A DNA stretch of 64,000 nucleotides, from the NCBI RefSeq assembly GCF_040958095.1, contig NC_091160.1, positions 42,917,968 to 42,981,967 on the forward strand, read 5' to 3'. Positions 53-62,700 of this stretch are shown here, piece after piece; position 1 is the first letter of the stretch, and each line of letters starts with the position of its first letter. The DNA comes from Procambarus clarkii (taxonomy: Eukaryota; Arthropoda; Malacostraca; Decapoda; Cambaridae). The notes beneath the pieces were generated by a model. The model did not search any database and was not told the DNA's origin. It worked only from the letters and a program-made list of their open reading frames with translations. The translations under genes and the position numbers were made by a program.

Positions 53-3000
53 CTGAAAAATAGAAAGGAAAATAATTTGTAACTGCAGTGTGAAAATGTA
101 TATTGAAAGTACTGTACTATAACTATGTAAAGTAACAGTGCTTTAATATTTACTAAAACATCACATTTTAACAGATTCGTTGACTGCATACAAAAATATT
201 ACATAATAATTGAGAGGATGGGTTAAAATTTGAGCATATAGTGCAAACCCACTCGTACAGAATTTGGTCCAACGAGAGCTCGGATGCACTGGAAGGATTC
301 CATTTCAGTCATAAATTAGGTTGAAAATTTATAAATAAAAAGAGTGGATATGAGACCACAACTATGACTAACCTGGGAACTCTGAGTCTGCTGGATAATA
401 GTACGTGGTAAACTCCAGGTGGAGGCTGGCCATCTGTGTAGGCAGCTTGAAGCGCTCCTTGTCCCCTAGAAAAGTTAACCATTTCTTGTCAAGTTTGCAC
501 AATAAAAAAAAATCTTATCTAAATACCTTTAATGCTTGTTTCCTCCAGAAACACCCAATCCCTGAGGGGACATGGCCTCAAATTATCTTCCCCTAAACAT
601 CTTAAGCACCTTCAGAATATTTTTCTCTCTATTGATATTCATTGCATTCACACATTCCACGACTTATTACATGAGCCACAAAATAAATCAAATCGGTGCA
701 TCAGTTCACCTTCAAGTCGTCTGCATTCTCAACATAATGCAAGTAGCAAGCACAAAAATGATTTGGCATGAACTAAAGCACTACAATTCAGGAGCCATTA
801 TTAGGAACTAAACACCAATTATATAATGAAAATATAATCCTTCACTTCATGCTTCAAGCTGAGAAAACAAAAGTATTGAAGAAATATACATAAATTCTCT
901 GTTGTGAACAGAACTGTAGACAGTTGGCATCAGTTAAATGAGAGGGTAGGTGCTGCCATAACCATCGCAAGCTGTAAAACATCACATAAAGGTTACAGGG
1001 AAGATGGGACATCCCAAGCATAGCTCTTATTCTGTAACTACCCTTAAAATAGTTACACACAATGTACTATACATAGATTTTTCACAAACATCATGCAGTG
1101 CTACAACTATAAGTGTGTGATCAAATGGTAAAACAGACAATATCAATGAAAAACAGACAAGCAATAAGGTAGGTTGACCAGACCACACACTAGAAGGTGA
1201 AGGGACGACGACGTTTCAGTCCGTCCTGGACCATTCTCACAATCGACTTAATAATGGTCCAGGACGGACCGAAACGTCGACGTCCCTTCACCTTCTAGTG
1301 TGTGGTCTGGTCAACTTACTTTAGCCACGTTATTGTGATGTTTCGCAAGCAATAACATAAGTAGTTAAACATTGCTGTCATTTGGAAAAACAATATAGTG
1401 AAGCTGTAGAAACATTTGAAAAAGAGTACAGTGTGACATCATAGAGCCTGCTCTTTTTGTGTATATCTTAACTAAAAATGTTAAAGAATACTAATGGGTT
1501 ACTACAACACAAATACATGAAGTCGTGATGTTGGGCCCTTTGACTACCATGCACTACACCATGAGGCAAACTAAGACTCCGGTGTTAAATATAATGAAAT
1601 GCCCCTCTCTAGTTTGTCCTTGGTGCTTCCATATTCCTGGGGCCAGATTCACGAAGCAGTTACGCAAGTACTTACGAACCTGTACGTCTTTTCTCAATCT
1701 TTGGCGGCTTTGGTTACAAATATTAAACAGTTAATGAGCTCCGAAGCACCAGGAGGCTGTTTATAACAATGACAACAGTTGATTGGGAAGTTTTCATGCT
1801 TGTAAACTGTTCACTAAATGTAACCAAAATCGTCAAGATTGAGGAAAGATGTACACGTTCGTAAGTACTTGCGTAACTACTTCGTGAATCTGGCCCTGGT
1901 TACTAGCCCTTCGAAGCCACCAAGGACCCACAATTAAGAAACATTTCATTATTCAATGCTGGTTTTCTGGGAGGGCTCCTATGGTGTTAACAACCTGGAA
2001 CAGAGAACCACCATAGGAGCCCTTCCAGAAAAATAATAGCAAAAAATTTAACCCACAACACTAGGGTATTTTATGACTTGTGAATACTGAAATAATGTTG
2101 CCATGCACTAGATCTATCCTTGAGCAATCTCTAACATATTTAGTTAATGACAAAACATTATTTGTGAAGGGGACTACAAGGCGAGCACACCAGAGGTAGT
2201 ATCTACAAGCGTATCAAATCACCTGTTTTCTTCCGTTGTTTTTTGTTGTGTCCAGCTTTATGGTGTTGGGAAGTAAGAGACAGTAAAGTTAGAATAAAAC
2301 AGCATGACAGTCTAGGAAAAGTAGGCAGTCTGGGATTCAACACGTAAAAGGCTTGGCAATGCATAATTTTAATAAGATGACACCAGAGACGACGACTTGT
2401 ATGACTAATATTTTACATTGCTTCCGTTTTTTTAACCCTTATTAATAATTCTATTATGTTTTAAGTCGTCATCTCTGCTTCAGATATCATATTCCAAGTC
2501 ATTGTTGTCGTCTCTGTTTCAGACTAAACATTCATGCAAAACAGGTTACTCAGGGTTGGTATATGAGAATGCAATATGTCTTAACAGTAAAGAAAGCAAG
2601 TTAAAAAAGCCATTTTATTACTTATTGCTGCTTCCCTAACTGTCTAATTTTGAATAATCCATAAGGATCAATATTAATCACTTGCAATGCAAATAAATAC
2701 AAATGTTAAACAGGAAACTTTAATTTTCAATGTTGGTCATTCCTTACATTATTTTTATGAACTTTCTAAATGGTAGCTTATACAGTGCAAGACAATAGAA
2801 TACATAAAATAAAACCCCACTTTTAAGTGGCTTCAACTAGACCATAAATATATTAACCTCTCAGCTTGATGTGGCTTATACTAAACTATAAAATACATTA
2901 CTTAATGTTCTCACTTGTAGAGAATTGAAATTGAAATTGAAATAAGTTTATTGAGGTAAAATACACACAAAGGGATGAGGTAGCTCAAGCTATTCTCACC

Positions 3001-6000
3001 CCGTTCAGTACAACGTGTTAGTACATACATAGACACACATCACAAACAATAAACCTGTTACCAAACATTCTGAGAGATAAACATGTACATTTCCTCCTTC
3101 ACAAGTAGTATGGTATCAGACGTACACAAATACTTTTATGACCTAGTTATACGGATAATTCAACAAAATATTACAGTCTTGGTGCAAAATTCTTATATCT
3201 CTCAAGAATATCATCAACCTTTCCTTTGTGACACATCCAGGCTATTTGCTCAGGAACAGTCCTTATCTCAGTGTTTCTATATACATTAATCAACGGACAA
3301 TCAAGAACATAATGGGCAAGGGTGTGAGACCTTAACATACCACATAGTTTACACTTCGTGTCATTATCATGAACACCTATCCCATATTCCCAGTAATATT
3401 TGTACCCAAGCCTGAGCCGCATGTACACAGAGTCACTCCAAGCATTTCTCCTTTTACCATAAGTGAAATGGGTGTTTTGACTCACATACATGTAGTGTTG
3501 CATGGTTAGACTTCTCTCATACATTATCCCTCTCCTCTCCACTCCTGCCCGTGCCTGAATATTTCTGATTTTGCTTCTTATTTGTCTCATTGTGAATTCA
3601 CATTCAATGTCAATTTGTGGTTTTGATGTGGCACGTTTGGCCAAGTCATCCGCCACCTCGTTGAGCACTATTCCAACATGAGATGGAATCCACATGAATT
3701 TCACACTATGACCTTTCAGCTGTATCTCAGTTATTCTTCTCTTACAATCCTCAACTATAGACATGAAGACTGGGTTTCGACTGTTTAAGGACTCCAGTGC
3801 TCCTCGGCTATCGACAAATACAAAAACATTTTTGTCGTCATGACGTACTTCCTCCAAACACGCCAGAATGGCCTGCAGTTCAGCTTGTGTGGATGATATA
3901 TAATTACTAAGCCGGAGTTCAATTATCCTGTCCACAGTCCCAAACTCCGTATATTCCCTTATTAGGACACCACACCCTGCCCTGCCATCCTCCGCCACCG
4001 ACCCGTCACAATATACATGTAAACTGTTGCCTCTTGGTAACCGAGATATCATGCTTCCATACAAACACCGTAATTGTCCCGGTTCATGATGAATTTTTTT
4101 CACCTTGAGGGGTACAATTTCGACGTCTATTTTCTGTACTTTCCAGGGAGCAGACATATTACACTGTCGAGAGGGTTTACAGCAGTCAAGTACATCGTAT
4201 TCCCTGAGGTCATGAGCTAATCCCCTCGTGTAGCGTGTCTCCCTCAGTTTCCTGGAAGTGTGTACGTCACTCAAGCAGGTCTGAACGCTCTCAAACAACT
4301 TATCCCCTCCTTTTCTCCGCATGAAACGAATAGCTACTCTAGTGTTAATGTCACGGACTCTATCACACACACACTGTAAATTTAATTCCATTCTCATTAT
4401 TTCAATCATTGCATTTCTTTGACATCCAAGAATAATCCTCATAGCCTCGTTCTGTATCAGCTCTATTTTTTGAATTCTGCCTTGGCCTGTGTAAGACAAA
4501 ACGGGTGCTGCGTAGTCTATCAGGGACCGAACAGTGCTTATGTATAACATCCGTAAGATAGGTACCCCAACACCTTTACCAGAAAAAGCCAGTGCTTTTA
4601 GAGGATGCGGTACTTACCAAATTAAGATACTTTTAACTTTGAACTTGTGAGGCCTGTACACACATCACTAACACTGTGACTTGTGAAATGTCATTTTTTT
4701 TTTAGATATGTAACCTTAAATTTAAACATTTCTGCCATAAAAAGCCAGCATGAATGTAATAAAATGCCATTTTTTGGATTGAGCCCCGGAGGATTCCTGC
4801 AGTATTGGACTGATATCCGCCATATTAGTCTATAGCATCAGTTACTGGAGTCCATATGCCTACCGGGAACCACGAGCCATAACCTGGTGTCTTCAGAGAG
4901 GTGAAGGGAGCAATGGCTTATGAACACTCCACTGTTTGAGAGTATAGTCATGTCTGCCATCGACTTGGGGTGTCACCCAGAAAGGTAGGCAAACTATTAC
5001 AAGCCCCAACTAGAAAAAACATTGCAACCCAAGACTGAATAGAGGCTAAAAACTCTCTCTCTCTCTCTCTCCCCCCCCCCCCAAGAGAAAACAACAAACA
5101 AGCAAGCAAATGTTTACTCAACCAGTTTGCCCACTCATTGGCAACCCCCCTCCCTCCCCAGGAGGGGTTCTCTAGCTATCTAGATAGCGATCTATCTAGC
5201 TATCTAGATAGCGATCTATCTAGCTATCTAGATAGCGATCTATCTAGCTATCCAGATAGTTAGATCTGATAGCTGCAGGGTGCCAATGGGGCTCCTCCCA
5301 TAAAAATAATAAATTATCTAACTACACACACCGCACCGCACTAAAGATATAGAACCCTTTGTTGTAACTACCTGATACACAAGTGTGGATGAATTCACTA
5401 CAAAAACTTCACTGAAATAGTCCCTTAAAATCACTTAAGATAACTTTAGGTAACGGAATAATATAGAAAATGACCCCTTAGAAAGTTAACATGGACACGA
5501 CTAAAATAAAATCATATTTTTTAATGATAAATACTGTAATTTAAATCAAGCAAAAATAGTTAAAAAGTGATGCCTTTTGAGTACTATATATGTTGGACAT
5601 GAAGCATGCAATTTTCTGCAAATTTTCTAAAATCATGCTAATATTTCAGATACTTTTACTTCTGAATAACATAGATCAACAAAATATTTTACAAAAAACA
5701 AACTTACAAAATATCACTAAGAGAAAACACATGATGTTAGTGTGTTCGGATGAAATAAATGCCATTACCATATCTCAACCACAAAATCTTGCATTACTTG
5801 ATCAAATATTGAAGCTGTGGGATCAAATCTGCATCCCTGTATTCCTCAGCCATATGATGGGCTTAAACGTATCTCAAACAGAAATACTATGTGACTTTTT
5901 TTTTTAATACACATATCACATTCTTGCAATTTCATTGTCTTGCAACACATACATACTTAATTAACACTCTTTTAAAGATCCACAAACTAACTTCCTCCTG

Positions 6001-18000: not shown

Positions 18001-21000
18001 AGGAGCTTAAAAATGTACATGAAACACAAGAGTTGTTTGCATTGTTATGGGTGAGTTTACAGACGAACAGGTGCATTTGGTTAACGAGTGTCTGGAACAC
18101 GACAGATCTTTGTGCAACCTGGGGAGGGAGGTCGGCCGAGTGGACAGCACGCTGGACTTGTGATCCTGTGGTCCTGGGTTCGATCCCAGGCGCCGGCGAG
18201 AAACAACGGGCACAGTTTCTTTCACCCTATACCCCTGTTACCTAGCAGTAAAATAGGTACCTGGGTGTTAGGCAGCTGTCACGGGCTGCTTCCTGGGGGT
18301 GGAGGCCTGGTCGAGGACCGGGCAGCGGGGACACTAAAAAGCCCCCGAAATCATCTCAAGATAACCATCTCAAGAAAACCATCTCAAGAAAACCATCTCA
18401 AGATAACCATCTCAAGATAACCATCTCAAGATAACCATCTCAAGATAACCATCTCAAGATAACCATCTCAAGATAACCATCTCAAGATAACCATCTCAAG
18501 ATAACCATCTCAAGATAACCATCTCAAGATAACCATCTCAAGATAACCATCTCAAGATAACCATCTCAAGATAACCATCTCAAGATAACCATCTCAAGAT
18601 AACCTGACAGCCGAGTGGACAGCGTTTAGGATTTGTAGTCCTGAGGTTCCGGGTTCGATCTCCGGTGGAGGTGGAGACAAATCGGCAAAAAGTTTCTTTC
18701 ACCCTGATGCTCCTGTTCACATAGCAGTAAATCGGTACCTGGAAGTTAGACAGCTGCTATGGGCTGCTTCCTGGAAGGGGGGGGGGGTAACAAAATGGAG
18801 GCCTGGTCAAGGACCGGGCCGCGGAGACGCTAAGCCCCCAAGATCATCTCAAGGTAACCTCAAGATAACGTGTCCTCTCGCTTAATACACCACATTTTTA
18901 ACCAGACAAATCTGCTAAAAATGCGATGTAATGTATTTGTAACAATTAAAGTCACATAATAATGACATTTTCTATGCCTCAGCCTTAATGGGTTAGGTGG
19001 GTTGCTGGGGTTCATACATTTGTGGTTAGACAAAACAGTTGCATTTTGAACAGAGTAGCAAATTGAGAAAACTGGCTAGATTGTGAACAATGAGAGCCAT
19101 ATTTACTCAGGATTACAATCATTCCCATCACAGCTGCAGACAAAAAATTATATCGCCTCAGTCATATACATACTCATAACTACAGGTATATGTGCAACAC
19201 ATTCCATCAAAAATGCATAAAGGATGTATGCAAAATGCATACAAAATGCAATAGGATTTCATAAACTCTTGAGTACAGTATCTTGAATTTTTTTGTATAT
19301 GGTTAATAAAATTTGTACAGGGTGGGAAAAAAATTTACCAGTTTTACAATAAATATTCTATTGGCTAAAGATACCAATAAAACAATTTTTGTTTTTGCAA
19401 CACAAACTTGAAACAATACATTTAACAGTTTCATAAAAAATTTAATGAAATTAAATTAAGGAAGCAATTAAATGAATGAGAAAATCCCTCATCACGTCCC
19501 CTACTAATCTTCTCATTCTCACTGAAAGAGTCATGTTAATGTGACTATTCTCTCTCTCTCTCTTTTAAATGTTATGTTACTTTTAAACTTTGGTTAAAAA
19601 CCATCACAAACTTTTCCCATCCTGTTTATATAATTGAGAGAGCAATGGTGCAGAAGAAAAGCTTGCAACTGAGGACTCTTAAGTTTATCAGGCGACTACA
19701 ATACCATTATGTTAATGATATTTTCCAGACATTGTTTGCGTCAAAAATGCTGTTCTAAAATGCTGCTCTAAAATGCTGTTCTAAAACAGTTCTAAGATAG
19801 TTCTAAAACACCCTCTAAAACATTTCTGTAAATCACAGATCTACAACACTGTTCTAAAAGACTTCTAAAACACAGTTGTAAAACACTGTTGTAAAACGGC
19901 ATTCTAAAACAACGTTCTAAAACGCCGTTCTAAAATACTATTCTAAAACACTGCCTTCCAGGTAAGACTAAATAAAATTCTTTAGCACATACGTAATAGA
20001 TCATCTCTTTTTATTTACTATATGTACATTAGACAACCGTTATTACACAAAGTTGTACTTCTGTACTTTCCATGTATTTTCCCATGCCAAATTTAATTAA
20101 TTAAGAATATAAGAAGTTCCTAAGATATGAAAGTGAACGTAAGGGAAAATGTGGCAAGAATGTGGTCACTGCATAGGAAGTAGCAGAGAATATGACAGTT
20201 TTTTATGCAAGTAATTATTAAAAAGAAGGCACCAAGCTGGGAACACTATTGAACACCAGATTGTTTTTTTGCTAAAAATGCATGAATTGAACAAATCTAC
20301 AAGGGCCGTGACGAGGATTCGAACCTACGTCCGAGAGCATCCCAGACGCTGCCTTAATCGACTGAGCAACGACATGGTAAAAGAATGTCGTAGCTTTTCC
20401 CATGTCATAGCTCAGTCGATTAAGGCAGCGTCTGGGATGCTCTCGGTCATAGGTTCGAATCCTTGTCATGGCCCTTGTGGATTTGTTCATTTGATACATC
20501 ACACTATTGTGATTTCTGCGTGCATGAATTGAGATTTAACTTATGACAGCTCATGTGTAATACTGACTGTCTAGGAAGCAATCAAGATACTGCTGCTATT
20601 GGTTTACCGACAAGTCTTCCGAGATGATATCAAGGATGGAAGATTATTGTTGTTGTAGAAGACTTTAATTTTAACAAACTCATTTCCTATAATGCTTATG
20701 CAGGCCAATGTAGGCAATATAGTCGAGATAATCAGTGACCTCTAGAAGGAACCAATCAAATCCCTCTCTGAAGTAATTTTTATATGTCCAAAGTAGAGTA
20801 TTGAGAAGTCTTGGATCCTACATGTCTACAGTTCTCTCTCTATATATACAAAATGCAAACTTACTTTTCACTGGTGATATTTTGAACATTCTACTGTGCT
20901 ATCCACTGTTGAAATACATTATTTAAGGAGATTTGGAACCAATCCTTTCAGAATTTTGTAAGTATATGACTATAGTATTACAAGGGTACAAATGACAGTC

Positions 21001-24000
21001 GTTTGTGCCTCAATATTAGCGAACTTCAAGCCTGCCGACACGAACGCAATGCTATAGTTAGTGTAGGAATCCAGAACTGCAACCTCCTCTTTTAACTTCC
21101 AGTATTTTACCCACATGTCAGTGGCACCATATATGATCCAACTCTGTTGACCAAACCACACACTAGAAAGTGAATAGACGACGACGTTTCGGTCCGTCCT
21201 GGACCATTATTAAGTCGATCTAACTCCCGAAGTAATTACCAACAGGAGGCACAAAGCCTAGTATACTCTTCAGCACAGACTGTGGCATAGAACAGTAAAA
21301 AAAAGTCCTAGATATTATTCAACATGTGAACACGACAGCAAAGGTTCATGACACAAGTGATGTCACAAGTGTTGGATTCACCAAGGATTATATCGAGGGA
21401 CAAGTAACCAAAAGGAATGTCTACTCACCTGAGCCTTAGTAGCATTTTACTGTACACAGAAAATGTCAAAAAGTCCTTATGTACAAAAAAGTTCAAATAA
21501 TTCATTAATAACATACCTTCAAATGTACCAAATTCTTTTAACACAATATTTTAAGAATTACAATCTTAACCAACAAAACGCAAACCAAGTTAGAGAAGTT
21601 TTCCATTTAATGGCTTTAAATTACTTTATTAAAGGTTAATGTTTCATTCCTAAGAGTCCAAAGTTTGTGAAAAAGTAGGCAAGGGAAAGTAGAGTAAATA
21701 ATGTGAAGTGCTAAAAAATATGAAGGCTCCTTCATGAAACGAAGCAGCTATCTGAAAATTTAATTAAAATTATTTTGAAACAAGTGAAATATTTGTATTT
21801 CTTTTAAATAGCATTAACAAATAAAGGACGAGCAAAGACATTCAAAATTTTTCTCCCAAAATGGGAACAATTCTAAATTATTTCCCGGTATTAGCAAATA
21901 CCATTCAATATGTTTGATTACTGTCGAGGGGCAAATATACGTAGGAGTCTAACAACTTAGCAATACCATTCAATATATTTGATTACGGGTCAAGGGTCAA
22001 ATATTCATAGGAATCTAATAACTAAATAAAGCCTGACATTAAAAGGAAAGGAGAGCTCTAACGTTGTATTTTATTTTTTCCACATTTAGATAACTGTTCT
22101 AAGAATCAAACCCACACACACGAAATTAATGACAGTGCCCTTAAATGACCCTTACCATGTCCCTTCATGACTTGGTAAGGGTCCAGGGGCCAGATTCACA
22201 AAGCAGTTACGCAAGCACTTACAAACGTGTACATCATTCCTCAATCTCTGACGAATTTGGTTACATTTATTAAACAGTTTACAAGCATGAAAACTTCCCA
22301 ATCAACTGTTGTTATCGTTATAAACAGCCTCCTGGTGCTTCGGAGCTCATTAACTGTTTAAAAATTGTAAACAAAGCCACCAAAGATCGAGAAAAGATGT
22401 ACAGGTTTGTAAATTTGCGTAGCTGCTTTGTGAATCTGGCCCCAGGACAGACCAAAACATCATTACTTTCATTTCATTTCATATGCGTGAGTCAAGTTAT
22501 CTGTTTCAGCCACGTCATTGTGACGTTTTCTCCGCAATTGTTCTCGCATTATACTTGAAGCGATAATCAAGATCCCAGTATCCAGCTCTGACAATCATCT
22601 CTATTTAATGATACGTTGAATGTGATATATTATGTTATGATCGTAACATGCCTTCACACATTTTTTTACACAAAGGTTATGAGGACCCAACACATATCCT
22701 CTTCTATCAACTATTCCCATTGTATCAGTTCACATCAAAACATAAAACTCCTCATCAGCTTTATTATAAATATACAGTATTCATATATCGATTGCAAAAT
22801 TTTTCTGAATAAGCTGAAAGCGTCAATAGCTTTCCTAACAAGAAGAAAAAACTTTAAATGTTACTATATACACGTACGCAAGTTGTGAGCGTAGAGTTTA
22901 AACTATTACATAATGTCCATGTGATCACACACACTATCATTATTTGAAATTTAAATAAAATTTAAAATTACTCCACCTCAGATTTACAGGAATGTTAAAA
23001 CAAAACAATATTCTTGTATTATGTTGCAAACATTTGTCTAAAAAAAAAAACTAAAAAAAAAAGAAAAGAAATGATTGTGGTCTATGGTGATGTGCCACGA
23101 CTCAACAATCACAGGGCACAGTAACCTTATGTACAGGTGTGTAACAAGCAGTAAGTATAGTGTACTACGAGGCTAGGCCACAATAACTGCGCACAATACA
23201 AGCCTCGGTGGTATCACCAGTGGCAACTTTTCATGCAAGGATCATCTTTTCTACAGTCTCAAGTCTATAAGTATTCTCTTACCTCCTTCAAAATTCAAGG
23301 AGCATGTTCAAAGGAAAATTTTTGCAATGTTTTTAGAAAATCACTAAACTTCATTCAGGTGTAAATCTAAATAAATTTTCATTACAAATAACAGAAACAT
23401 TTAAAATTACAAAAGAAAAAGAAATACATGAAATCAAACGAGAAATATTGATTATAAAATTAAAGTAGAATATGTTTCCCAGTGTTTAATGAAAGCTAAA
23501 TCTCTTAATATATTATCGTCAAGGCAAGGAAAAAAGACAAGCTAATTTTCTAAATATTCTCTCCACTGAAATCCTGATCACTACATGCTTAAGCCCAGGT
23601 CAAATGGAATTATTTGTCTCATAACTTTACACGAGAGGAACAAATAACTTATAATTTGCAATAATATACTTATGATTCTACTATTTCATGAAGAAATGGT
23701 TTAGAGGAATACACCTTTTCTGGGCCTGAGCCCTAGTGGTTCCCCAGCTCCAGGTATTACAAAAGGCCAATTAAATATAAGGTATTCAAAAGACTCAATG
23801 CCTACTGGAAACACAGCCTTTGTAGTTACTCCTCCATCCTTCAAGGTGGGAGGGAGCAAATGAGGATCAGATCAATTGAAACAGCCTTACTACCCTATAT
23901 AATGAGTCAAATAACACCCACCCTCCCCTTGAGAATGTTTGGAAACTGTTTACAATGAAGAAATATAAATTTCTGTCAACTACTCATCTATCAGAGCTCC

Positions 24001-27000
24001 TTTCTGTGCCGCTGTAGGGTGGCATCCCAACACACCCACCTTTACAACCAGTCCTCAATCTCAAGCCCAGAACAACCAAATACCCTACAGTACAGGTAAA
24101 AGGATTGGAAATGGGAGTCACCAAGCTTAAGCCCAGATATGGGTGTTTCATTACACTCAACTCTACTTTTGAACCTTCTCTTCAGTGGCTTTCCAAGCTT
24201 ACTCTCAGTGTGCCTTGACCGAGGAATCCCGCCAAAGGACAGAACATGAAACTGTTCTAAACAGAAAACTGGAAAATACCCAGGTTAACTAGAGCCATCA
24301 CCCAGGAAGCACAGAGCAACACGGGTGTGGGCAAGCTGATCCACTGTCCGACATTGATAATGCAACAAAGCATGAAGGTATCGAGCCACCAATAAATAGC
24401 TAGAGTGCCAGAATCTACGGGTCTAAATGTTAGCAGCATTTTCTGCATATCATATACACTTGGTTGCAACCTGGCCTTAGAGTTGAGAACCTCAGACCAA
24501 GGATGCAAAAAAAAAACGTTGAATGTAATGAAATGCCAGTTTCTGGGCGAGCCCGGAGGCTCCCTGAAGCTGTCTTACTGATTAAATGCCATACTACTTA
24601 AGTGTCATCAGTCGCAGAGTTCTTTGTTGCCTACCGGAAATCAGAGCCAGAACCTGACCCCCTCAGAAAGTCACAGGGAGCAATGGCCTATGAACACTTT
24701 ATATTTAAAGAGTATCATACTTGCCATCGACCAGGGAAGGCATCAAGAAAGGCAGACGAAACAAAACAAACCACTGCCTAGTTGCAAATTGCGACCTACA
24801 TCGTTAAAAGAGCAACAGAACTCCCAAAAAAAGCAAAAGCAAACAAACAAGCAAGCAAAACTTTATGCAGGCGATGAGTCACAATAACGTGGCTGAAGTA
24901 TGTTGACCAGACCACACACTAGAAGTTGAAGGGACGACGACGTTTCGGTCTGTTCTGGACCATTCTCAAGTCGATTGTCACAATCGACTTGAGAATGGTC
25001 CAGGACGGACCGAAACGTCGTCGTCCCTTCAACTTCTAGTGTGTGGTCTGGTCAAGCAAAACTTTGTCCAACTCCCCCCCCCCTCCCACCCATTAGCCCC
25101 ACAGCCATCAGACAAAAAATATGGTGAACTAGAGGCCTAAACAGAGGACAATGCCAGAATACAGACAACTCATTCTTAAGCCAGAGCACCACCTTGACCA
25201 TAGAGTCTTCTATAGGAGATGCCACCTGAAATTGATGGAAGGACAAGAAAATGGTCAACCGAGCTTCAACAATGACGGAAACTATAAATCCATATTAAAA
25301 CCAAGAAGAGGCTCCCTCACGCCAAAAGATCCAAGGCTCAGCTCAAGCCAAATGATTCGAAGTTCTTCTGAAGCCAAATGATCTGAGGTAATAGTATCAG
25401 GCATGAACCGACTTTCCCCAATAACCAGGAGAGGAACACTAAAACCATTGTTGCAGATATTTCTGAAATTTGCCATAAAGCCAAAGACAAGTTCTCATAC
25501 TGGCATCTAAGCACACCAAAATTTGAAACTAAAGAGACTGCCACCTGAACACCTCTAAAATTCATACATGAAGACACTAGAAAGTGAGGGGACGACAACG
25601 TTTCAGTCCGTCCTGGACCATTCTCAAGTCGATTATGAATGGTCCAGGATGGACCAAAACGTCGTCATCCCTTCACTTTCTAGTGTGTGGTTTGGTCAAC
25701 ATATTTCTGCCACATTATTGTGACTCCTCGTCTTCATACATGAAGATTTGCAGTGTTGTGAACCATCCAAAAATATTATATCTCCAATTGTCTGCATAAG
25801 ACAGAACCATGGGAAGGGCACTGGCAATGAATAACAATAAAAAATAGAAGTGCAGAAAGCAGTTTTGAACTATCCGCCATGTAACACTCGAAAAACATAA
25901 CATTGGATCCTCTCTAACTTCGTTATAACAACAGTGCACAACTTTAACTGGAGGAGAGAGAAATGCCACCCCCATCAGTTTCCGTCCAGGTGTAGTGTGT
26001 TACCTGCAAACATCACTGGAACCTGACGTTCAGCAACATATGCTGGTAGCTTCAGTTTCTAATCGAGATGAAAAAATTCACCACCATACATTAGCATATC
26101 TTTGACACCAGCAAAAATAGGACACATCAACTTCTCCGTCAAAATTGGATGAGAGTGAGAGATAATGTTTGCGAGTACATCTGAAGCCCCCAAATATAAA
26201 CTCTGAAGGGCCAAACCCTGAAAAGCCAGAACTAAGTTTTCTCAGAGGTCATGTCATCAGAGGTGATGCTCACTCTTGTGACAACACAAATAACTGAGAA
26301 AATCTGAATGCAAATGGACTATGAAACTAAGTACCATCTAAAGGTACTGCAACTTCTGCACCATGTAGTGGACTCACCTCACCGAGACTACAAACCCTAA
26401 ATAGAGCAGAATCTGGAGAAAAAATCCTTGCCTATCTCTGATGCAGCCATGTAGTTCTTAAGCAGGTCTGGAAGATGCCAAAGATTCAAACACCAAAAAG
26501 CAGAGAGTGGAAAGCAGTGCAGCAACAGGTCGCACAAAAGCCCCAGGAATATACACAGCATCGATGAAGTGATAAAGAGCCGACAAGTGTAAGAAATGGA
26601 ATGAGGCCTACAGCCACACTTGGCTTGGTGGGCACAGATGATGCCTGTAAAATCAAGGCCACTCAGCAGCTGCTCAAAATTCTGACTTTTCCCATTTGTT
26701 GTTCATGTTTTCTTCCATAACAAAGAATACACCTCTCCTGGATGATCAGCATTCCAACTTGCTTGGATGGTTCAAGTCTTTCCACTGATCGCATCAGGAA
26801 TTATTTACCCATTTAAGGGGACATGTTGGCTGATCCTTTACTGTTCTATTTGCATTCTTTTTCCCAATACTAATATCAAATTGCTTGGTGGTCTTTCCAG
26901 GTCTTTAATTCTCTTTGCCAGTTGTCCTCTGTTTTTGAGTCAATAGTAATGTCCTTTCTTGTCTTGACTATTTGCCGAGTGTTATCTCATACAAAATATT

Positions 27001-30000
27001 GTCAACTAAAATTTGGCCTTGGTGGTACTACTCTTACTTTTTTTTTTTTTGGGGGGGGGGGGGGAGGAAGATGTTTCTTTCTCTGCTGCTCAGTTTCTCA
27101 ATTTCATTTCCTTGGTACCTTGTTCCAAGGTCACACTTTCTCAGTTATTCGTCAGATGGTTAGTCAGAGCAATTTGTACATGTATCTGTGTATGCATAAT
27201 GTGCACAAGTATGCTACCATTACTGCCTTCTTTGCCAATACTGGCAAGCCTCTGGCTTACACTTGGGTTCAAGGCTTCTGGCAATCAAACAGCGCAGGCT
27301 GAGCTTTACCTTTGGGATGTTCCCAGTCCTACTGAAGCAAGTGTGGCATCTTGACAGCTTTCCAGTCACTGAGCTCATCTTTTCTCAAGCCCTGGGACTC
27401 TGGCCTTCTCATCCAATAGATCAGCTCTTTTTCCTTATTACCCTATTTTTTTTTTAGGCCAAAGACCTAAAAAGTCCTATAGAAAAAGACTATTCAAGGC
27501 ACTGTTGTGAATATGCAACAAGAAGCTACTTAGGGGCAGCCCAACAATTAAGCATAAATAAATGCTCCTTTCAGTAGCTCCTCATCCCGCTTTTGTTCTC
27601 AGTTAGGATCGGGGACATTTCAGGGAAGGCACCTATGTGGCACCTATGTGAGACAAGCAGACAAATTGAACCATGGAATACCAGAGGGACCATCTGGTGG
27701 TGAGCTTGGATACATGATATGTATATGATATACATGATTTATTAACACTGGGGCAAATTACAGCTATCCCTGCATCCATCACCTCTACTTTTTGTCAAGA
27801 TACATAGTTTATTGCTGACCAAACCACACACTAGAAAGTGAAAGGACGATGACGTTTCGGTCCGTCCTGGACCATTCTCAAGTCAATTGTGTCGTCGTCC
27901 CTTCACTTTCTAGTGTGTGGTTCGGTCAACATACTTCAGCCACGTTATTGTGACTCCTTGTCTGTATACATAATTTACTTTTACTTTGCACTTTCTGGCC
28001 AGTTTTACTTGGTTATGAAGTAGATCTTGGATGCCCATATTACTCCTTGCCTTTACAAGCACACAAGACTATTCTTGGTGTTCAGTAGACAGCACAAGTC
28101 CCGACACCTAGCAGCATTGTGCATCAGGGAGCTCCCGAGGCTCAGCCCAGAAACTTATTCAAATAATTAGATTAGTTTTAATATATGTGCACAATAAATA
28201 CATTTATATGTAGAGAGTGAGTGTGTGTATAAATGTGGGAATGAATGTGTATGAGAGAGTGAAAGTGCATGAGAGAAAGTGTGTATGAGAGAGCACAAGT
28301 GGGTGTATGTGTGTGTGTGCGCGCGTGAGCGCATGTGTGTGTTCTTCCTCCACACCTGCAGCTTCCCACACTTCAGTCTTATCATTTATACACCTTCCTC
28401 TTCCCCAGATATATCTGCTGGTATTCATGTTCACGGTATCCCTCACACTTCAATTCACCCACCAAGCCCTGCCTACCATTTTTATCCCCATTTATGCAAC
28501 ACTACACACTACCCTAGTAGTCTTAGCTGCACATTCCTCGTATACACCAAACATATCAAATGAAGTTCTTTTGTTCATACACTCTTGCTCCAAGATCAGT
28601 GTAAACTCTTTGTATTCACAAAATAACTTGATTTTCTCTCAACCTTTAATCCTACACCACCTCTTGGAGCCTTCTCTGCCACCATTATCCATATATTTTT
28701 ATTTTACATAGCACCATTATGAGGCAAGACAACCCCCCACTAAGGAAATTTTGGAGCATTACGATGCAATTGAACTCACGCCTCTAGCCTGCCTTGAGCA
28801 CACTATCTGGGAGGCCAGAATTGTGCGATCAGTCCCACTGCATGGCCCCCAAATGTTTCCGATGAATACATCACATTACTCTAAGTTTGGTAAGGAAAAC
28901 ATAGCATATTGATATGCCCTTTTACGACTTTTACATCAGTTACTATACCCAGCATGTACTTTATACTTGTAGTGAGATGCATGTTAATGTCAGTGACTTT
29001 CTTCCCCACATCTTAACCATTCACCCTGAACCTTGTGCACTTATGTAAAGTGTGGGTACCTATAGTTGTGGATAAGAAACCTCTTCATCTTACCATGGTC
29101 CTTCCCCCACCCTAGGCAAATTAGGGGTGGTGGGGGACCTTATCCAAAGATGCTATCCCTTTTAAGACGACTACTCTACCATGCAAATTGCCCATCTCAA
29201 ATCTATAAGTTTTTTGTATTATACGGATCTCATTCTCCATATTACAGAAAATAAAAAACAATACTTTCATTTTCACTTCAATTATACCATTTAAACATGA
29301 ATGTCACATACACAAGAAATTGAACTGTGACCCAAGTCATTCACAGCAAGACACAACTCTTCATTCATTCAATGCAGGGATTCTCACCTGGGATACACGT
29401 GTCCCTAGGCCCTCGAAGTACTGTATATGTACCCCTGGGTAGTTTGCGATACTTTCTACAGACAAGTTTTACATAAACTGAAAGTACCAGTATTTTAAGA
29501 ATCCTCCCCCCCCCCCATAAAAAAATTTCCCCACACGTATCTTTGTGGTACATGTACTGTACACCACAGTGAGAACACCTGCCAAGACTTGCTTCTGATA
29601 TTTTCTCTCACTCCTGCTTCCTATAATCCGTATCTCAATAACACTCTTCATTCTCACTTTCCGATTGTCTCGCATAAATCTAACGCATGAAACTAACCTT
29701 CCATATGAATGTTCACAACTTTTAGCATCATTTATTTTAGAGTTAGTCCTCTAAAATTCAAACTAGCTCTCTGTGTTCTCTAGGACCTGAGTAGATGCAT
29801 GCCCCCAGATTCATGAACAATTTTGCCCTTTGTGGAAGGAAAGAAATTAGGGAAAATGGGTGCCCAGCCCACCTACCCAATGCCCTTATCACAGGAAATA
29901 TAGGGCTTATTGCAACACACAGTAAGATGTGAGGTTATCACATATGTATGTCAATGATAAAAGTGTTTCCATATATCTGGTGCAGTAGTTAATTCATAGT

Positions 30001-33000: not shown

Positions 33001-36000
33001 AGAAAGAGATCAAACTAATTAATTTAGACATGCATATTAAGTAAAAACTTATACTTGCAAGTGCATGGAATAAATACCAAAATCTGAAATATAGTCAGTC
33101 CTCCATCTGCAAATTTGAAGAAAGTAAGTGTACAAGAACACAAGTCGACAATCGACTTGAGAATGGTCCAGGACGGACCGAAACGTCGTCGTCCCTTCAC
33201 CTTCTAGTGTGTGGTCTAGTCTACAAGAACACAATTTGGCATTAACTAATTCCAAAATAAGAAGTTTACTGTCATAGTCACACACACACACACACACAAT
33301 TCCATTTTTTGCACATGACTGGCAGGTCTCATTGTCCAGATTATTTTTTTGGCCAGCATTACATTTCACCTCCCACTGCTCAGCCCAGTTAGTGATGTGT
33401 GACCCAATACCACATTACGACCTTTATGACTCGTGCCAACTGTTTCACCTCTCATAAATGGTTTGTGTTACATTCTTACAGCATAATTCCTCCCAATCAT
33501 TGTGCAAAGCCTAGTACACCCAAAGATATCCCTATGAAGAACTTAAAAAGAATATAGAAACCACCACAAATGTAAGTCATGAGAGTGAGGAGACTACAAC
33601 ATTCATCAGTGATGGTCACAACATAAATAAGCCACAAAAACACACCAGATATTTATGTAGTTTTTGTAAAATATTTGCGAATTGTTGGGAGGGGCAACTG
33701 AAGGCACGTTTACAATGAATCCAAATTTGAATAAAAATTTGGAATTCATGAAGGGTTTTGAATCTTCTCTGACTTTATACAGGGAGATCTACAGTTGAAA
33801 ATTGTCCATAATATGATAGTCCACCCAACTTATGGTTGCTCAATTCACAAAAAGAAGTACTGTATTGTATACTTTAGGTTGAACACATGGTATCCAAATG
33901 CCTGGTAACCAATGATAACTGTATCCAACACAAAGCAAGAAAACATATGAACACACATCTGTTCATATATGAGCATATATTTAATGCTGTAAATGGCATA
34001 TGTCATTCACAAACAAATGATTTGGATAATGTGCAGTTCACACTGAACATAGCTCTCGTATCTTATAAGAGCTGGGCGACACGTTCGAGGGGTTAGAATG
34101 CCTGTAATTCCTAGACAGGTCATCTTGAGGTGTGCATGGGCAAGGTGGCACTCAAGAAGTGAGGGGAGGTGGCCTAATGTTTTTGTGTTTCTTCGATTCC
34201 ACCACGTGTCCAGGTCTTCCCCGAAGATCAAACTGCTGACCCACCCCAGGATGCAATCCACAACAGCTGCTAAACTCCTAGGTACCTATTTACTGTTAGA
34301 TGAAGAGGCATCAGGTGAAAGGAAACATGCCCAACCATTTCTGTCCACCCCGGGAATCAAACTCAGGATCTCTGATTTTGACTCAAGAATAAAACCAACT
34401 GTACTGCAATATATATGTTCTACATGATATATTGTATATGAATAGCACACATCTAGTTCATACCAGAAAATTTAATGAAATTGAACTCTCCACAAACTGT
34501 AATTATTCTTGGTTGTATTTAATGATAACCTATGTTTAGAAAACCCTTATGACCTGTTACCAAGTTACTTGGATCATATTTTCTATTAGAAAACAGACTT
34601 GTACCACTGGAAAGAACAAATTACTATCTTAAATTAATACTGATGCACAAAAAAACTGCAAAAATAATCAAGTTGTTTGACCCAAAATGGACAAAATAAG
34701 TAAAGGATCAAAATAATAGTGTCATTGGAAATGGATTAAAACGAGGTGCCAGAGGTGTACTGTATTCCTTAACCCATGCAACATCAATGTTTGACAGGCA
34801 GACTATATCTATTCAAAGTAACAAAATTACCTCTTTGAAGATGAGTACTTCTCCTCGATCTACATCTTTCAGCCGTGTTGTCCGAAGGTCTGCCTTGAGC
34901 CAGAATGGGTTTTTGGAATCCAGTACGATTCGAGAAAGCTAGAGAGACAAAATGCATATTATTTAATATTATTGATGAAAGATATGATAAAGGTAAGGTA
35001 ATTATGAGGAAAAAGCTCCAAGTTAGTATGACTATATAGCACTTGAAAGGGATACGAGGACAAGGAGCTTGGATACGATGGCGGGAAGAAATGGTGCATA
35101 AATGATCTTATAACCTAAGTGTGAAGAACTCAAACTCATATTATTACAGTACTGGTCATGAAAAAAACACATCCAATACCACCATTCTAGAGAAGCAGAG
35201 TTTTCTTTTTGTCTAAATTAATACACAAAAGAGGCTTTAAGTGCACTTTTTAATAGTTTTACTTAGTTGCCTCTTAAGGCAAGCTTCCACTGTTAAAAGG
35301 GTAGCTCTTGTTTAGTCCAGCAGGGCAACATTCAAGGTGCTGAAAACACCTTCCTTTCTGGAAGGTGGAAGGTTTACTGGAAACACAAACGTACTATCAG
35401 GGGTCACCAAAGAGGGCTTGGAAAGGGCTTTCCAAGTGTATATGAGTTTTTCTTACACAGATGGGTACATGAGTAGACAACTTCTGATTCTTGTTAGCAA
35501 GCTGAGAAGCTCCCCCTTACCATGGCATGTACGTTTTCCCTGGAACACGAACAGCCAATTGACCAACAACAACTATAATCCCAATTACATACGACCAAGT
35601 GAACAGAGGCGAACAGTCAAGGATTGATGCCTAGTCAATCCTCCCTGACCAGAACTCGAACTCAGAACAAAGTCACTCATGAGGCACATGGTGAACACTA
35701 ACTGGGAACACTTCACCATCAGGGACTGCAAATGGGCCTAATATCTAAAATGTTTGACAATTTTGTTGTAAACACTACCTTTACTCCGTTAATATATGTG
35801 ACATTATCACATGCACACTTAAAGAAACAAAATACTGTACACAATAGCTTTAACAGCATACCTGGAAGAGCGAGAACTGCTTTAGACATTATGTCAGCTA
35901 AAACTTAAGAAAATATACTGTACAGTAATGAATTACCTGAAATGAAGCATGAAATGCAGGACTACGAAAGGTGATTAGCACTGAGTTAACAGTAACAGTC

Positions 36001-39000: not shown

Positions 39001-42000
39001 AAAGCGCTCATGAAATGCCAGGCGAGTGTCTTACCACTTCACCACGGGGTTCTCAAACATACTCAATGAACAGGGCCCTCTATAGCTGTGATCTTTAATG
39101 TAAGCAGACTTACGACTCCTCAATACAGAGTGTGTCACTCTGGAAGCAAACTTTCATTCACAAGACTTAAAGTTAATGAAGTTAAAATTAAGAATCCTAT
39201 ATTTATGAAATCAACATATGTACTTAATAATATGGATGAGGCTACAATAATATAATACTTTATATGCATAGAAAATTCTGATACCCAAATAATAAAATGG
39301 TGACATTAAAGAGACAACGAAGATACAGTATTCTCACCACAACTATGGGTACACTCTTGAGCTTCGTCCACTGTATTTTCAGACTGACTTTGTTTACTCT
39401 TGCTCGTGTGATACGAAGCCATGTCGGAAGCTCAAGAAGATCTGTCAGTACAGCTTCATTAAGCTCTAAGTTTGTGAGTTCTCCCTCTCCCTTCAGAGTG
39501 CTCACGTTTACACTGTCTGACGATACATTTTTTGCAAATCTGAAAAAATATACATTATATAAAATACCCAGTATATTAAATAGTCACTGGTCCTCAGCCA
39601 CTTGGGGAAATTAATTGATACAGGTGGAATACAAAATATCAACATTAACTCTTTAGAAACATGCATGGTATGAAATAGAGGAAACTTGAACTACATAAAG
39701 TGACATCAAATTCTATTGAGTACCCAAGATGAGGCACTTGTTTAGGTTGTGTTGTGTGATTGGAGACTGGTTCACCTCAGTGCTGGTTCTCTCTCAGGTT
39801 GGTTTGGCATCTACTCTAAGTGAAGAAGTTTCACTTGTGTAAACATGCATATTACACTATATATCATGCAGTGCCCATCAACACTATTGCAAAACCACCG
39901 GATTCCTGTCCTTGTCTAGGCTTCTAGAGATAGTGGCCCTCAGGTAAATTCAGGTAAAGTCTCAGAGTTCTGAACAGTTGCCTGTCTCAGGTCATTTTCC
40001 AATATACAGTGCTGATACTTCTAAAATAGATTTAAATATGAAAGGTATTTTTCAGAACCCTATTAGAAAAAACATTAAAAAAAAAATTGAGTCAGTGCAT
40101 GGTTCTTATGAATATCATTTTTAATAGTAATTTTACAATTATATATAAATTAATTTGTTCCCTATTGCTATCAAGTAAACATATTGTCCCTAAACTGTGA
40201 ATGACACTGTTATACCCACTAGAAATGCTGGCTACACAAGATAACCCTGGCTTCCTGTCTTCATCAAGGCCACTAGTGAGTTAGGGGCCCTCGGGTAAAT
40301 TCAGAAAGGTGCATAACAAGTAATAAACTGTATCCGAAGACTGTGCAAGGTAATTATCAGGATAAAGCACTAAGCCAGTATGACTAAATAGCCCCTGGAA
40401 GTATTATGAGGACAGGTTAGGAGCTGGAAGAGGAGAATAGAGTGAAGAAATGGTTCCCAACCATTTGGTCCATCATGGATCAAACACTGACCTGCAAGAA
40501 GCGAGGCCAGCCAGTGCCCAACAGCCTCAAACGCTGTGGGTATTAGTAGCTTTAGACATCCTACCTAGTATGTACTAGCTATACTGTATCTACAAATTCA
40601 ACATTCTGTTTGTAACTCATCCTGTATGTACATACTTTTACCTGAATAAACATTATTTATTTATTTTTATTACTATTATTTATTATAAGAGTATGGATGT
40701 TTTGTGTTTTTCCTTATCACAACCTTAACAGAAACAAAGAAAAATAAATGAATCTACAAATATTTTCCTTGCAGCTTTAATCCTCATTGTATTATTGTAG
40801 CTTTGTTTTACAAGTGTCACAACAGCCGTACAGGAAACAACTGGCCCAGTCATTAATTTGTTCCTATTCTATTGGCCCTATGGCCCTATTCTAATTACCG
40901 AGTCATTAAGAGCATTATAATGTCAGAAATTTTAACCTCTTAAAAACAATGTTAATTAAGCATGGGGGTATTGGAATACTGCATCAGTGTTCCGATTGTA
41001 CTCATCAGTATCACTGCAGAGGTGGAGGTTTTCCGAGACACGTGTGGCTGACAATTCACAACGTAGCCCTACATCCATAACTGGTTCACCCTTAGTGTTT
41101 CAAGCCCCAGGGCACTGTCTACCCCCCTGAAGCCATAAATGTGTAAAACACTACTTCAGTTTAAAATCCAGCTGGAAAAAATATTCAGGAACATTGGTGG
41201 GTCCTTTGACAAGCCGCCGGCTTCCTGTCTTCATCGAGGTCATCAAAGATTGTGGTCCCTCAGGTAAATTCAGGCAAATTCTTCCCTTTCTGATAGTTCA
41301 GCAATGTTAACTGGGAAGCAATCGATCAAAGAAAGATTTGTTTCAGTGGGCTTTCTTGCCACAAATTGGTGGTGTCTTTTGAAATAAATTATGACATATG
41401 AGGAATGACTAGCTGTCAAGCAATGAGTCACAATAACGTGGCTGAAGTATGTTGACCAGACCACACACTAGAAGTTGAAGGGACGACGACGTTTCGGTCC
41501 GTCCTGGACCATTCTCAAGTCGATTGTTCTCAAGTGATTGATTGTGAAGTCAAAGACCACAATCGACTTGAGAATGGTCCAGGACGGACCAAAACGTCAT
41601 CGTCCCTTCAACTTCTAGTGTGTGGTCTGGTCAACTAGCTGTCAACATCACAGTCACAAGTCCATGTAACTCAACCTCTTTTTGCTCAAAAATAATTCTG
41701 GGTTGTATTTTAGATAAATATACGTGGATTTTATTGACAATTGAAAGGAGACAATTTCTGTGTTTGCCCTTGATAATGGTTAAATGAGCAAAATGAAACA
41801 CTAAATGACTCAAAAATACATTTGCATATGATGAACTCGATCATTTAACATATGGTCACTCGACCGAGCAATGCTGCTCTAACTACCAAGAAAAATATTT
41901 GTAATTAATTGATAGGGTAAGGCTACACTAATGTCATACTGTCCATGTCAGAAAAGTATTCAAAACAATATATAGTAATAAGCAATTCATTTTTCATTCA

Positions 42001-48929: not shown

Positions 48930-49045
48930 TTGAAATTTTTTCTTTTTAGGAAGAAAATTAAAAACTATAATTTCTGTTTTCAGTCATGATTTGATGATGT
49001 GACAAGGCAGCCCACAGGAGGAAAGTTTGAGCGTTGTGCACTAAA
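48930..49045 (+). promoter_or_regulatory. 5' untranslated region and candidate 3' splice sites of the zinc-finger gene
   Basis: Two pyrimidine-tract plus AG sites, TTTTTCTTTTTAG near 48950 and TTCTGTTTTCAG ending at 48983, precede the start codon by 95 and 62 bases. Either could join an upstream leader exon that I cannot identify. Confidence 0.4.
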
Positions 49046-57036: not shown

Positions 57037-57160
57037 GTATGTTGTCTAAACTACATGTTTACTGCCAAGAATATATATTTTGATAGCTAATTCCTTAATT
57101 TTGCTGTTTTCACGAAGCCTAATGACATAATTTGAGGTTTTATATATATATATATATATA

Positions 57161-57753
57161 TGTCGTACCTAATAGCCAGAACGCACTTCTCAGCCTACTA
57201 TTCAAGGCCCGATTTGCCTAATAAGCCAAGTTTTCATGAATTAATGTTTTTTCGTCTACCTAACCTACCTAACCCAACCTAACCTAACTTTTTCGGCTAC
57301 CTAACCTAACCTAACCTATAAAGATAGGTTAGGTTAGGTTAGGTAGGGTTGGTTAGGTTCGGTCATATATCTACGTTAATTTTAACTCCAATAAAAAAAA
57401 TGACCTCATACATAATGAAATGGGTAGCCAAGTTTTCCTGAATTAATATTTTTTCTCTAATTTTTTCTTATGAAATGATAAAGCTACCCATTTCATAAAG
57501 TATGAGGACAATTTTTTTTTATTGAAGTTAAAATTAACGTAGATATATGACCGAACCTAACCAACCCTACCTAACCTAACCTAACCTATCTTTATAGGTT
57601 AGGTTAGGTTAGGTTAGGTAGCCGAAAAAGTTAGGTTAGGTTAGGTTAGGTAAGTTAGGTAGTCGAAAAACAATTAATTCATGAAAACTTGGCTTATTAG
57701 GCAAATCGGGCCTTGCATAGTAGGCTGACAAGTGCGTTCTGGCTACTAGGTAC

Positions 57754-57757
<4 letters not shown>
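57161..57757. mobile_element. Foldback element carrying telomere-like AACCT/AGGTT repeats
   Basis: Left arm 57161-57428 and right arm 57483-57757 are near-perfect inverted copies around a loop of about 55 bases. Each arm starts TGTCGTACCTA, has AGCCAGAACGCACTT, and carries blocks of CCTAACCTAACC and AGGTTAGGTTAGG that are themselves inverted. The element is bounded by (TA)n on both sides (57141-57160, 57758-57844). No ORF. Confidence 0.82.

Positions 57758-57844
<87 letters not shown>
57758..57844. repeat. (TA)n microsatellite flanking the foldback element
   Basis: Right border of 57161-57757; a shorter TA run is at the left border. Confidence 0.95.
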
Positions 57845-57852
<8 letters not shown>

Positions 57853-59832: not shown

Positions 59833-59839
59833 CTCGATG

Positions 59840-60480: not shown

Positions 60481-60504
60481 GTTAGTGGGGGGGGGGGGGG
60501 GGGT

Positions 60505-61768: not shown

Positions 61769-61800
<32 letters not shown>
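61330..61800 (-). mobile_element. Retroposon 3' region related to family E, longer form
   Basis: Plus-strand TACAAGAAGGTACATTGGTT, CTAGTACGCGCAGCGTTTCG and GAGATGAGAGTGATTAGTAA match 54475-54850 closely. It ends at a second (AAAT)n run at 61764-61810. Confidence 0.6.
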
Positions 61801-61807
<7 letters not shown>

Positions 61808-61810
61808 ATA
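61764..61810 (+). repeat. (AAAT)n microsatellite
   Basis: About 11 units after a family E-type element. Confidence 0.9.
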
Positions 61811-61887
61811 TGATAGAGTTCGACTGACAGTTGAGAGGCGAAACTCAACCCCAGCAAGCACAACTAGGTGAGTGTACACACATGCTC

Positions 61888-62051
61888 AGGATGCAGTCCG
61901 TAGCAGCTGTCTAACTCCCAGGTACCAATTAACTGCTAGGTGAATAAGAGCATCAGGTAAAAGAAATTCTGCCCATTTGTTTTTGCCTCGACTGGGAATC
62001 GAACCAGAGTCCGACTACCCCAGAGCGCTGTCCGCCCGGCCACGAGGCCCT
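61888..62051 (-). mobile_element. SINE family B body and head between two LINE tails
   Basis: Minus-strand GGCCTCGTGGCCGGGCGGAC head and GGTTCGATTCCC, body to CTGCATCCT. The second LINE family's tail lies on one side in plus orientation (61818-61880) and on the other in minus orientation (62055-62092), so at least two insertions meet here. Confidence 0.65.
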
Positions 62052-62184
62052 GTGTGTACTCGCCTAGTTGTGCTTGCGGGGGTTAAGCTTTTGCAAAAAA
62101 CTTTTGCAAAAACAGAGTATAAATCACATTATCAAAGTATTGAGCAAATGATGGTAAGGTTTACAAAGTCTTGTGATACATTTG

Positions 62185-62360
62185 GCTTCGTTCTCGACTA
62201 GCAATTAGGGATCCTGGGTTCGATTCCCTATGGGGACAGAAATAGCTAGGCATGTTTCCCTTCAACAAATGCCTCGGTTTATAAAGCAGGAAATATGGCC
62301 AACCGGGAACTGCATTCTGGGAAGAGTCAGTAGTTCCACCTCGAAAGGCGTGTATATATA
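62185..62360 (+). mobile_element. SINE family C
   Basis: GGATCCTGGGTTCGATTCCC, AGGCATGTTTCCCTTCAACA, then GGAACTGCATTCTGGGAAGA and a palindromic TGTATATATATACACG end. Confidence 0.55.
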
Positions 62361-62497
62361 TACACGTTACTACACACATATGAATAATTTAGTTAGGCTC
62401 TCTCAAGGTATGAGGCTGCTGGCGGAAAGGTCTAAACCCCTCTAGGGAGGATGGGTAAGCCTGGATACAACTTGGTAGGCGTAACTATAGTAAATAT

Positions 62498-62700
62498 GTT
62501 GACCAAACCACACACTAGAAAGTGAAGGGACGACGACGTTTCGGTCCGTCCTGGACCATTTTCAAGTCGATTGTGACAATCGAGTGGCACAATTGACTTG
62601 AAAATGGTCCAGGACGGACCGAAACGTCGTCGTCCCTTCACTTTCTATAGTGTGGTTTGGTCAACATATTTCTGCCACGTTATTGTGACTGCTCGTCTGC
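62498..62700 (+). mobile_element. Hairpin retroposon copy 8
   Basis: Both arms, loop near 62570, tail to GACTGCTCGTCTGC. Flanked by the perfect 11-base repeat ATAGTAAATAT (62487-62497, 62701-62711). Confidence 0.87.

Follow-up and report, generated by a model that had tools for sequence, protein, structure and literature searches.

A 64,000-nucleotide (nt) stretch of the Procambarus clarkii genome (NCBI RefSeq assembly GCF_040958095.1, contig NC_091160.1, positions 42,917,968 to 42,981,967 of the forward strand; hereafter the window, the single stretch to which all statements below refer) contains a family of short elements in which two inverted arms surround a loop and a tail follows on one side only, and it raises the question of how such palindromes are made and what kind of molecule is mobile. 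Nine copies of this main hairpin family and one sister element, named I3, were found. It is well supported that the main family and I3 are retroposons resembling short interspersed elements (SINEs), which are mobilised by a candidate partner long interspersed element (LINE) through LINE-type retroposition. To account for the palindrome we propose, at chances that we regard as evenly balanced, that a single-armed RNA is written in from both nicks of the target site and that the palindrome is built anew at each insertion. A single-armed RNA is proposed because the arms are matched, the loops are copy-specific, the inner truncation affects the right arm only, and the tail has the same length in unrelated bodies. 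A sequence-only reading of the window had already described eight of the copies and assigned them to LINE machinery; the old ninth copy, the I3 family and the paired changes in the arms go beyond that reading.

The main hairpin family

The eight insertions with common arms (c1 to c8) are listed below, each oriented with its tail on the right and followed by its target-site duplication (TSD).

c1, 1168..1345 (+): both arms, loop and 30-nt tail; left-junction filler GGTAG; TSD CAAGCAATAA, 10 bp, exact, at 1158-1167 and 1346-1355
c2, 21145..21216 (+): half hairpin, left arm only; TSD GATCYAACTC, 9 of 10 bp identical, at 21135-21144 and 21217-21226, the right-hand one adjoining the loop
c3, 24865..25052 (-): full palindrome with 1-nt loop and 37-nt tail; TSD 13 bp, exact, at 25053-25065 and 24852-24864
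c4, 25575..25732 (+): left arm cut at the outer end, right arm cut at the inner end, 32-nt tail; TSD 14 bp, exact, at 25561-25574 and 25733-25746
c5, 27812..27965 (+): full left arm, partial right arm (inner end cut), 35-nt tail; left-junction filler, seen by eye; TSD 11 of 12 bp identical, at 27800-27811 and 27966-27977
c6, 33144..33221 (-): half hairpin, left arm only; TSD 13 bp, exact, at 33222-33234 and 33131-33143, the right-hand one adjoining the loop
c7, 41420..41633 (-): both arms, enlarged loop, 31-nt tail; TSD 12 bp, exact, at 41634-41645 and 41408-41419
c8, 62498..62700 (+): both arms, 35-nt tail; 6-nt left-junction microhomology AAATAT; TSD 11 bp, exact, at 62487-62497 and 62701-62711

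The count of eight arm-sharing copies was borne out by motif matches well beyond expectation: at up to 3 mismatches, a scan of the window gave 14 matches to ACCACACACTAGAAG (2.2 expected), 13 to GACGACGACGTTTCGGTCCG and 6 to CAGCCACGTTATTGTGACTC (0.00 expected for each of the latter two), and the CAGCCACGTTATTGTGACTC match at 22507, one of the six in tails, belongs to the old ninth copy. The direct repeats of 10-14 bp that had been placed around every copy were all recovered at their junctions, each copy having flanks of its own; they measure 10, 10, 13, 14, 12, 13, 12 and 11 bp in c1 to c8, six being exact and two (c2 and c5) containing one mismatch. An exact shared word of at least 10 nt in the 20-nt flanks was present in 38 of 5000 random pairs of window positions, versus six of the eight copies.

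Other parts of the earlier description need adjustment. Two inverted arms had been ascribed to all eight copies and are present in six (c1, c3, c4, c5, c7 and c8), the right arm of c5 being partial, while c2 and c6 are half hairpins that end in the loop. The one-sided tail that follows the arm, previously put at about 45 bases, was found in the same six copies at 30-37 nt, and the 3' end that had been called constant is nearly so in sequence but ragged over about 7 nt. The left end is nearly constant in seven of the eight copies, with c4 as the exception.

LINE-made TSDs are typically about 7-20 bp long. Here they are of LINE type and variable length in all eight copies (10-14 bp) and in I3 (12 bp), and the fixed-length TSD expected of a miniature inverted-repeat transposable element (MITE) of the DNA-transposon type was not found. 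The LINE-mobilised class rests on these variable TSDs together with the single orientation, the near-constant tail, the truncations, and the filler or microhomology at the junctions, and the earlier preference for LINE machinery over a DNA-transposon MITE therefore stands.

A tRNA-derived sister element

The sister element contains the same layout in a body unrelated to that of the main family.

I3, 20291..20520 (+): inverted dimer of a tRNA-derived SINE; TSD TGCATGAATTGA, perfect, 12 bp, at 20279-20290 and 20521-20532
20401..20471 (+): tRNA-like head in the right arm of I3, A box at 20408, B box GGTTCGAATCC at 20452

The arms within the I3 body are 93 nt long and complementary at 85 of 93 positions, with a 10-nt loop at 20384-20393 (the 106-nt arm returned by the inverted-repeat search includes 13 nt of the left duplication), and the 34-nt tail starts at 20487 and ends in TCACACTATTGTGATTTCTGCG. 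The Rfam tRNA model aligned to the head over its positions 1-71 of 71 with 17.8 bits (E 0.32), which does not reach the gathering score of 29; the A and B boxes, in sense orientation in the right arm, contain one mismatch in total, and none of 150 shuffles was as good. Among the elements scanned (I3, c3, c7, c8 and the old copy) such a head with both boxes was found in I3 only. In the main family, 139 (c3), 89 (c8), 94 (c7) and 133 (old copy) of 150 shuffles gave boxes as good, and Rfam searches of the whole window at gathering score and of c8 at E<=10 detected no tRNA, 7SL or 5S head, in agreement with the sequence-only reading.

The centre of the I3 palindrome, i.e. the loop, adjoins the tRNA 5' end at 20401, which suggests that the palindrome centre corresponds to the 5' end of the RNA; transcription from a promoter inside the right arm would then be expected to leave out the left arm. 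The tail excluded from the palindrome is 34 nt in I3 and 30-37 nt in the six tailed main copies, although the bodies are unrelated, and the I3 tail resembles main-family GCCACGTTATTGTGACTC, followed by TCGTCTGC-like ends. A fragment at 14061-14102 is related to the 3' portion of the tRNA-derived SINE body (GGCCCTTGTGGATTTGTTCA); its tail is different and no palindrome was seen there by eye.

Proposed priming from both nicks

In the proposed mechanism the mobile RNA of the main family would be single-armed, starting near ACAATCGACTTGAGAATGG in the loop and ending near TCGTCTGCA. The LINE enzyme would prime a first complementary DNA (cDNA) from one nick on the 3' tail of the RNA. The other nick would prime a second cDNA, either on that RNA or on another one, at a distance of about 30-37 nt upstream from its 3' end. 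The second cDNA would reach the RNA 5' end and then take the first cDNA as its template, yielding in order the duplication, the inverted arm, the RNA-5'-end junction (the loop), the sense arm, the tail and the second duplication. The process may be regarded as a variant of twin priming that is regular and duplicating and starts both strands by reverse transcription; for short retroposons it would be an uncommon mode of spread.

The loops and junctions contain several features that such a process would leave. All six two-armed copies have different loops, and those of c7, c8 (8 nt) and I3 contain an extra partial copy of the right-arm start, the presumed RNA 5' end; 3, 20 and 53 of 2000 shuffles, respectively, were as good. 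The right arms of c4 and c5 lack their inner end, where the left arm is whole, and the left arm of c4 extends at least 11 nt further inward than its right arm, as expected under the model if the first cDNA stopped early. Microhomology between the target and the expected RNA at the left junction amounts to 3 nt in c3, 1 in c4, 2 in c7, 6 in c8 and 3 in I3 (six of the nine junctions were analysed by script). The TSDs at six junctions (c1, c3, c4, c7, c8 and I3) were also compared with the expected RNA over 12 nt: I3 matched at 9 of 12 positions and c8 at 7 of 12, which 16 and 423 of 20000 random 12-mers equalled.

The arms of the six two-armed copies were aligned with each other. All three shared variant columns outside CpG sites are changed in both arms, with within-copy agreement of 5/5, 6/6 and 6/6; each remaining non-CpG variant is private to one arm of one copy, and wherever a one-arm column recurs among copies it is a CpG site. 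The arms of a copy therefore share subfamily variants, and the inverted segment appears to come from the same RNA as the sense segment, or from the same kind of RNA. Agreement between own arms over all variable columns was reached by 20 of 720 label permutations, and the mean left-right distance is 0.059 within copies and 0.081 between copies, the overall signal being blurred by private decay, largely at CpG. In the hairpin alignment both sides are changed in 4 of 78 pairs. The three shared paired sites have no intermediate pair types, and one of them is a double transversion from G-C to U-A. None of 500 shuffles and none of six slid versions equalled the hairpin alignment in covariation score, in the count of doubly changed cells or in percentage paired. 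The layout of I3, taken with the lack of shared one-arm non-CpG variants, suggests that the inverted partner arm is made during integration. The proposal is also favoured by an inner-arm variant, ATTAAG, which c2 has in its left arm and c1 in its right arm only.

An old copy

~22104-22536 (+): old ninth copy, with diverged left arm and inner palindrome at ~22104-22186 and right arm and tail at ~22444-22536
~22187-22443: MITE-like insertion with GGGGCCAGATTCAC ends that splits the old copy

With its flanks joined, the old copy aligned to c3 along most of its length, at a score of 91 where the best of 500 shuffles gave 48; the corresponding values are 79 and 41 for c8, and 78 and 45 for c7. The join omits two bases, and the shuffles preserve base content only. 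No clear TSD was seen by eye. The inner palindrome reads GACCCTTACCA...TGGTAAGGGTC in the old copy and GACCATTCTCA...TGAGAATGGTC in the young ones, and over the 15-nt inner arm a right-side change matches three of the four left-side differences. These paired changes indicate that the main family was probably palindromic already long ago. The MITE-like element with GGGGCCAGATTCAC-type inverted ends is present in two copies, at 1640-1896 and 22181-22448, the second within the old hairpin copy.

Weighing the explanations

The main weakness of priming from both nicks is the left arm, which starts at nearly the same place in seven of the eight copies. Twin-priming sites vary in L1, and the proposal therefore has to explain why the second priming site would be fixed. 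The human and chimpanzee data of PMC2912911, in the portion of its text available, include a single 5'-inverted Alu. Several junction results also weigh against the proposal. A few inner right-arm bases are present in c6 without the remainder of that arm; filler was found at the left junctions of c1 (by script) and c5 (by eye), and no microhomology was seen by eye at those of c2 and c6; the 12-nt match is weak in c1 (6 of 12, equalled by 1473 of 20000 random 12-mers) and at chance level in c3, c4 and c7 (4 of 12 each). Among the arm statistics, the count of four doubly changed pairs was reached by 52 of 500 shuffles, 461 of 500 equalled the count of further pair types, and the sample of two-armed copies is small (n=6). 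The inner arms of c1, which lie outside the arm alignment, differ (CTC versus ATT) and would need two different RNA templates. I3 is a single copy, and the similarity of its tail to those of the main family is modest: of 20000 stretches drawn at random from the window, 80 score as well against c3, 101 against c8 and 25 against the old copy. A CACR-loop-UGUG stem-loop is the best predicted fold in three of five tails (c3, I3 and c4), c1 and the old copy folding differently, and the tail folds are not clearly beyond shuffles (138, 13, 42, 21 and 27 of 200 as stable). Neither a single-arm RNA nor an intact single-arm source copy was seen in the window. The comparison of the tail with LINE 3' ends that the sequence-only reading had suggested was made within the window: the tail occurs only in the hairpins, it was not seen by eye after three LINE open reading frames (ORFs), and no partner LINE was seen.

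The nearly constant left end would be explained for free by the main rival, an inherited hairpin RNA consisting of left arm, loop, right arm and tail, with its start near TTGACC, which a LINE copies from the tail and whose arms are kept matched through selection on the stem, gene conversion or strand switches inside the hairpin. This was the mobile molecule favoured by the sequence-only reading; the retroposition part of that claim holds, and the hairpin RNA itself we consider a real but rather doubtful possibility, given the I3 dimer and the co-changing arms. In its favour, reverse transcription begun in the loop would be one reading of c2 and c6, paired changes are also expected from stem selection, and the predicted fold of c8 is extremely stable (-159.7 kcal/mol, z -21.8), although any such long palindrome must fold so. 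Against it, the arm alignment contains no one-arm non-CpG variant common to copies, and the three shared paired sites contain no G-U or mismatched intermediates and include the double transversion. The six loops are all different, the promoter boxes are at chance in c3, c7, c8 and the old copy, c4 and c5 lack the inner part of the right arm only, and the internal promoter of I3 would not be expected to produce the left arm. It is improbable that the cDNA of a single-arm RNA snaps back, folding its 3' end and copying itself up to the RNA-covered tail. A single priming event would then account for the matched arms, for the constancy of the excluded tail and for loops that coincide with the 5' end of the RNA. 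However, the left arms of c4 and c5 reach inward beyond the end of the right arm, their supposed template (unless a later deletion is assumed), the inner arms of c1 differ, and in c2 and c6 the left arm is present although the right arm is not. Penelope-like elements (PLEs) can have terminal repeats in inverted orientation, duplications of variable length and a short extension on one side, and the elements resemble them in layout; we nevertheless regard derivation from non-autonomous PLE-like retroelements or from hammerhead retrozymes as highly improbable. Metazoan retrozymes, according to the part of PMC7229834 available, occur in crustaceans among other animals and have duplications longer than the 4 bp of plant retrozymes, and one-mismatch hammerhead cores with GAAA downstream were found in c4, c5 and c8. 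However, these cores are not conserved among copies, Rfam detected no hammerhead in the window at gathering score and none at E<=10 in I3, c8, the c3 tail end and the right part of the old copy, no exact CTGANGA core was present in the nine elements scanned (all except c2), no PLE protein was found among six window ORFs scanned against Pfam, and the layout is shared by a tRNA-derived SINE. A MITE of the DNA-transposon type, with long terminal inverted repeats and irregular duplications, would suit the long inverted arms around a short centre, and co-evolving arms are known in hairpin MITEs; such an origin is extremely improbable here, as TSD lengths vary, the tail is asymmetric in six of eight copies, the 3' end is ragged, internally truncated copies still end in TSDs, and the tRNA-derived sister has the same layout.

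Two further candidates were rejected. A stretch that looks like a hammerhead on the antisense strand of the tail had neither an Rfam match nor an exact core and was dropped. Matches of c8 to many microRNA families were all below gathering score and are of a kind that any long palindrome gives.

Searches and other features of the window

Exact searches with arm, tail and SINE-body patterns of 19-20 bases gave no match in viral contigs, and the tail pattern gave none in prokaryote genome contigs, which says little for a crustacean repeat in either case. The element sequences had no exact match in the open-licence literature. Among the matches listed from that literature, titles and abstract openings describe no palindromic or inverted-dimer SINE, and the words 'hairpin' and 'palindrom' are absent from the main text of the decapod repeat survey PMC10454600. 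The LINE remnants and the remaining features noted in the window are the following.

3171-4613: LINE remnant, RNase H ORF
6615-8687: LINE remnant, RVT_1 ORFs, with an endonuclease match just below the Pfam cut-off
36793-38383: LINE remnant, RVT_1 ORF; best named match Cherax quadricarinatus, 70% identity, third in the list
49031-50797: long C2H2 zinc-finger ORF; matches other than the window's own protein at most 35% identical, with no close named relative
57141-57777: large inverted repeat with 178-nt arms, 96% complementary, with CCTAA/TTAGG tracts and runs of AT dinucleotides at its bounds

The CCTAA/TTAGG tracts resemble the arthropod telomere repeat.

Implications

Priming from both nicks might be a general habit: we suggest tentatively, and at somewhat less than even chances, that a LINE of this crustacean integrates passenger RNAs from both nicks as a rule, each SINE insertion being born palindromic with a fixed one-sided tail. 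If so, the identity of the arms, commonly read as evidence of selection on RNA structure or of DNA transposition, would be a by-product of integration, and each palindrome would record both strand-priming events and the RNA 5' end. The second half of LINE integration is described as poorly understood in the sections of PMC6895275 available, and a family in which each short palindrome preserves the template switch, the two priming events and the 5' end of the RNA would make it testable by sequence, copy by copy. Such elements also resemble hairpin MITEs and microRNA precursors, and in annotation they could be filed as DNA transposons.

Comparison with known systems

Among known systems, tRNA-derived SINEs with LINE-like tails share with I3 the head with A and B boxes, and with both hairpin families the short similar tail, TSDs of 10-14 bp and the lack of evident coding capacity (at most 230 bases). 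They differ in that the hairpin families insert as inverted dimers and that the main family has no recognisable RNA polymerase III head. Foldback elements and hairpin MITEs have the same long co-evolving inverted arms, but the main family has no fixed TSD length, and it has an asymmetric tail and retroposon-like truncations. PLEs and metazoan retrozymes are alike in inverted repeats, one-sided extension and variable TSDs, whereas the hairpin families have no hammerhead match and include a tRNA-derived member. In L1 twin priming, which PMC2912911 reports, in the text available, for 639 of 2068 human and chimpanzee L1 insertions, a 5' inverted segment stands beside a 3' non-inverted one; two nicks prime on the RNA, as proposed here, TSDs are of normal length, as here, and microhomology is present at the 5' junction, as at some of the junctions here. 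Unlike in L1, the inverted segment of the hairpin families is a second copy of the sense arm, and in the main family the left arm is present in all eight SINE-sized copies, at a nearly fixed site in seven. In the R2 model of template jumping during LINE second-strand synthesis, as outlined in the available part of PMC6895275, the second primer behaves differently from that of the hairpin families, which would first copy RNA and thereby make the inverted arm.

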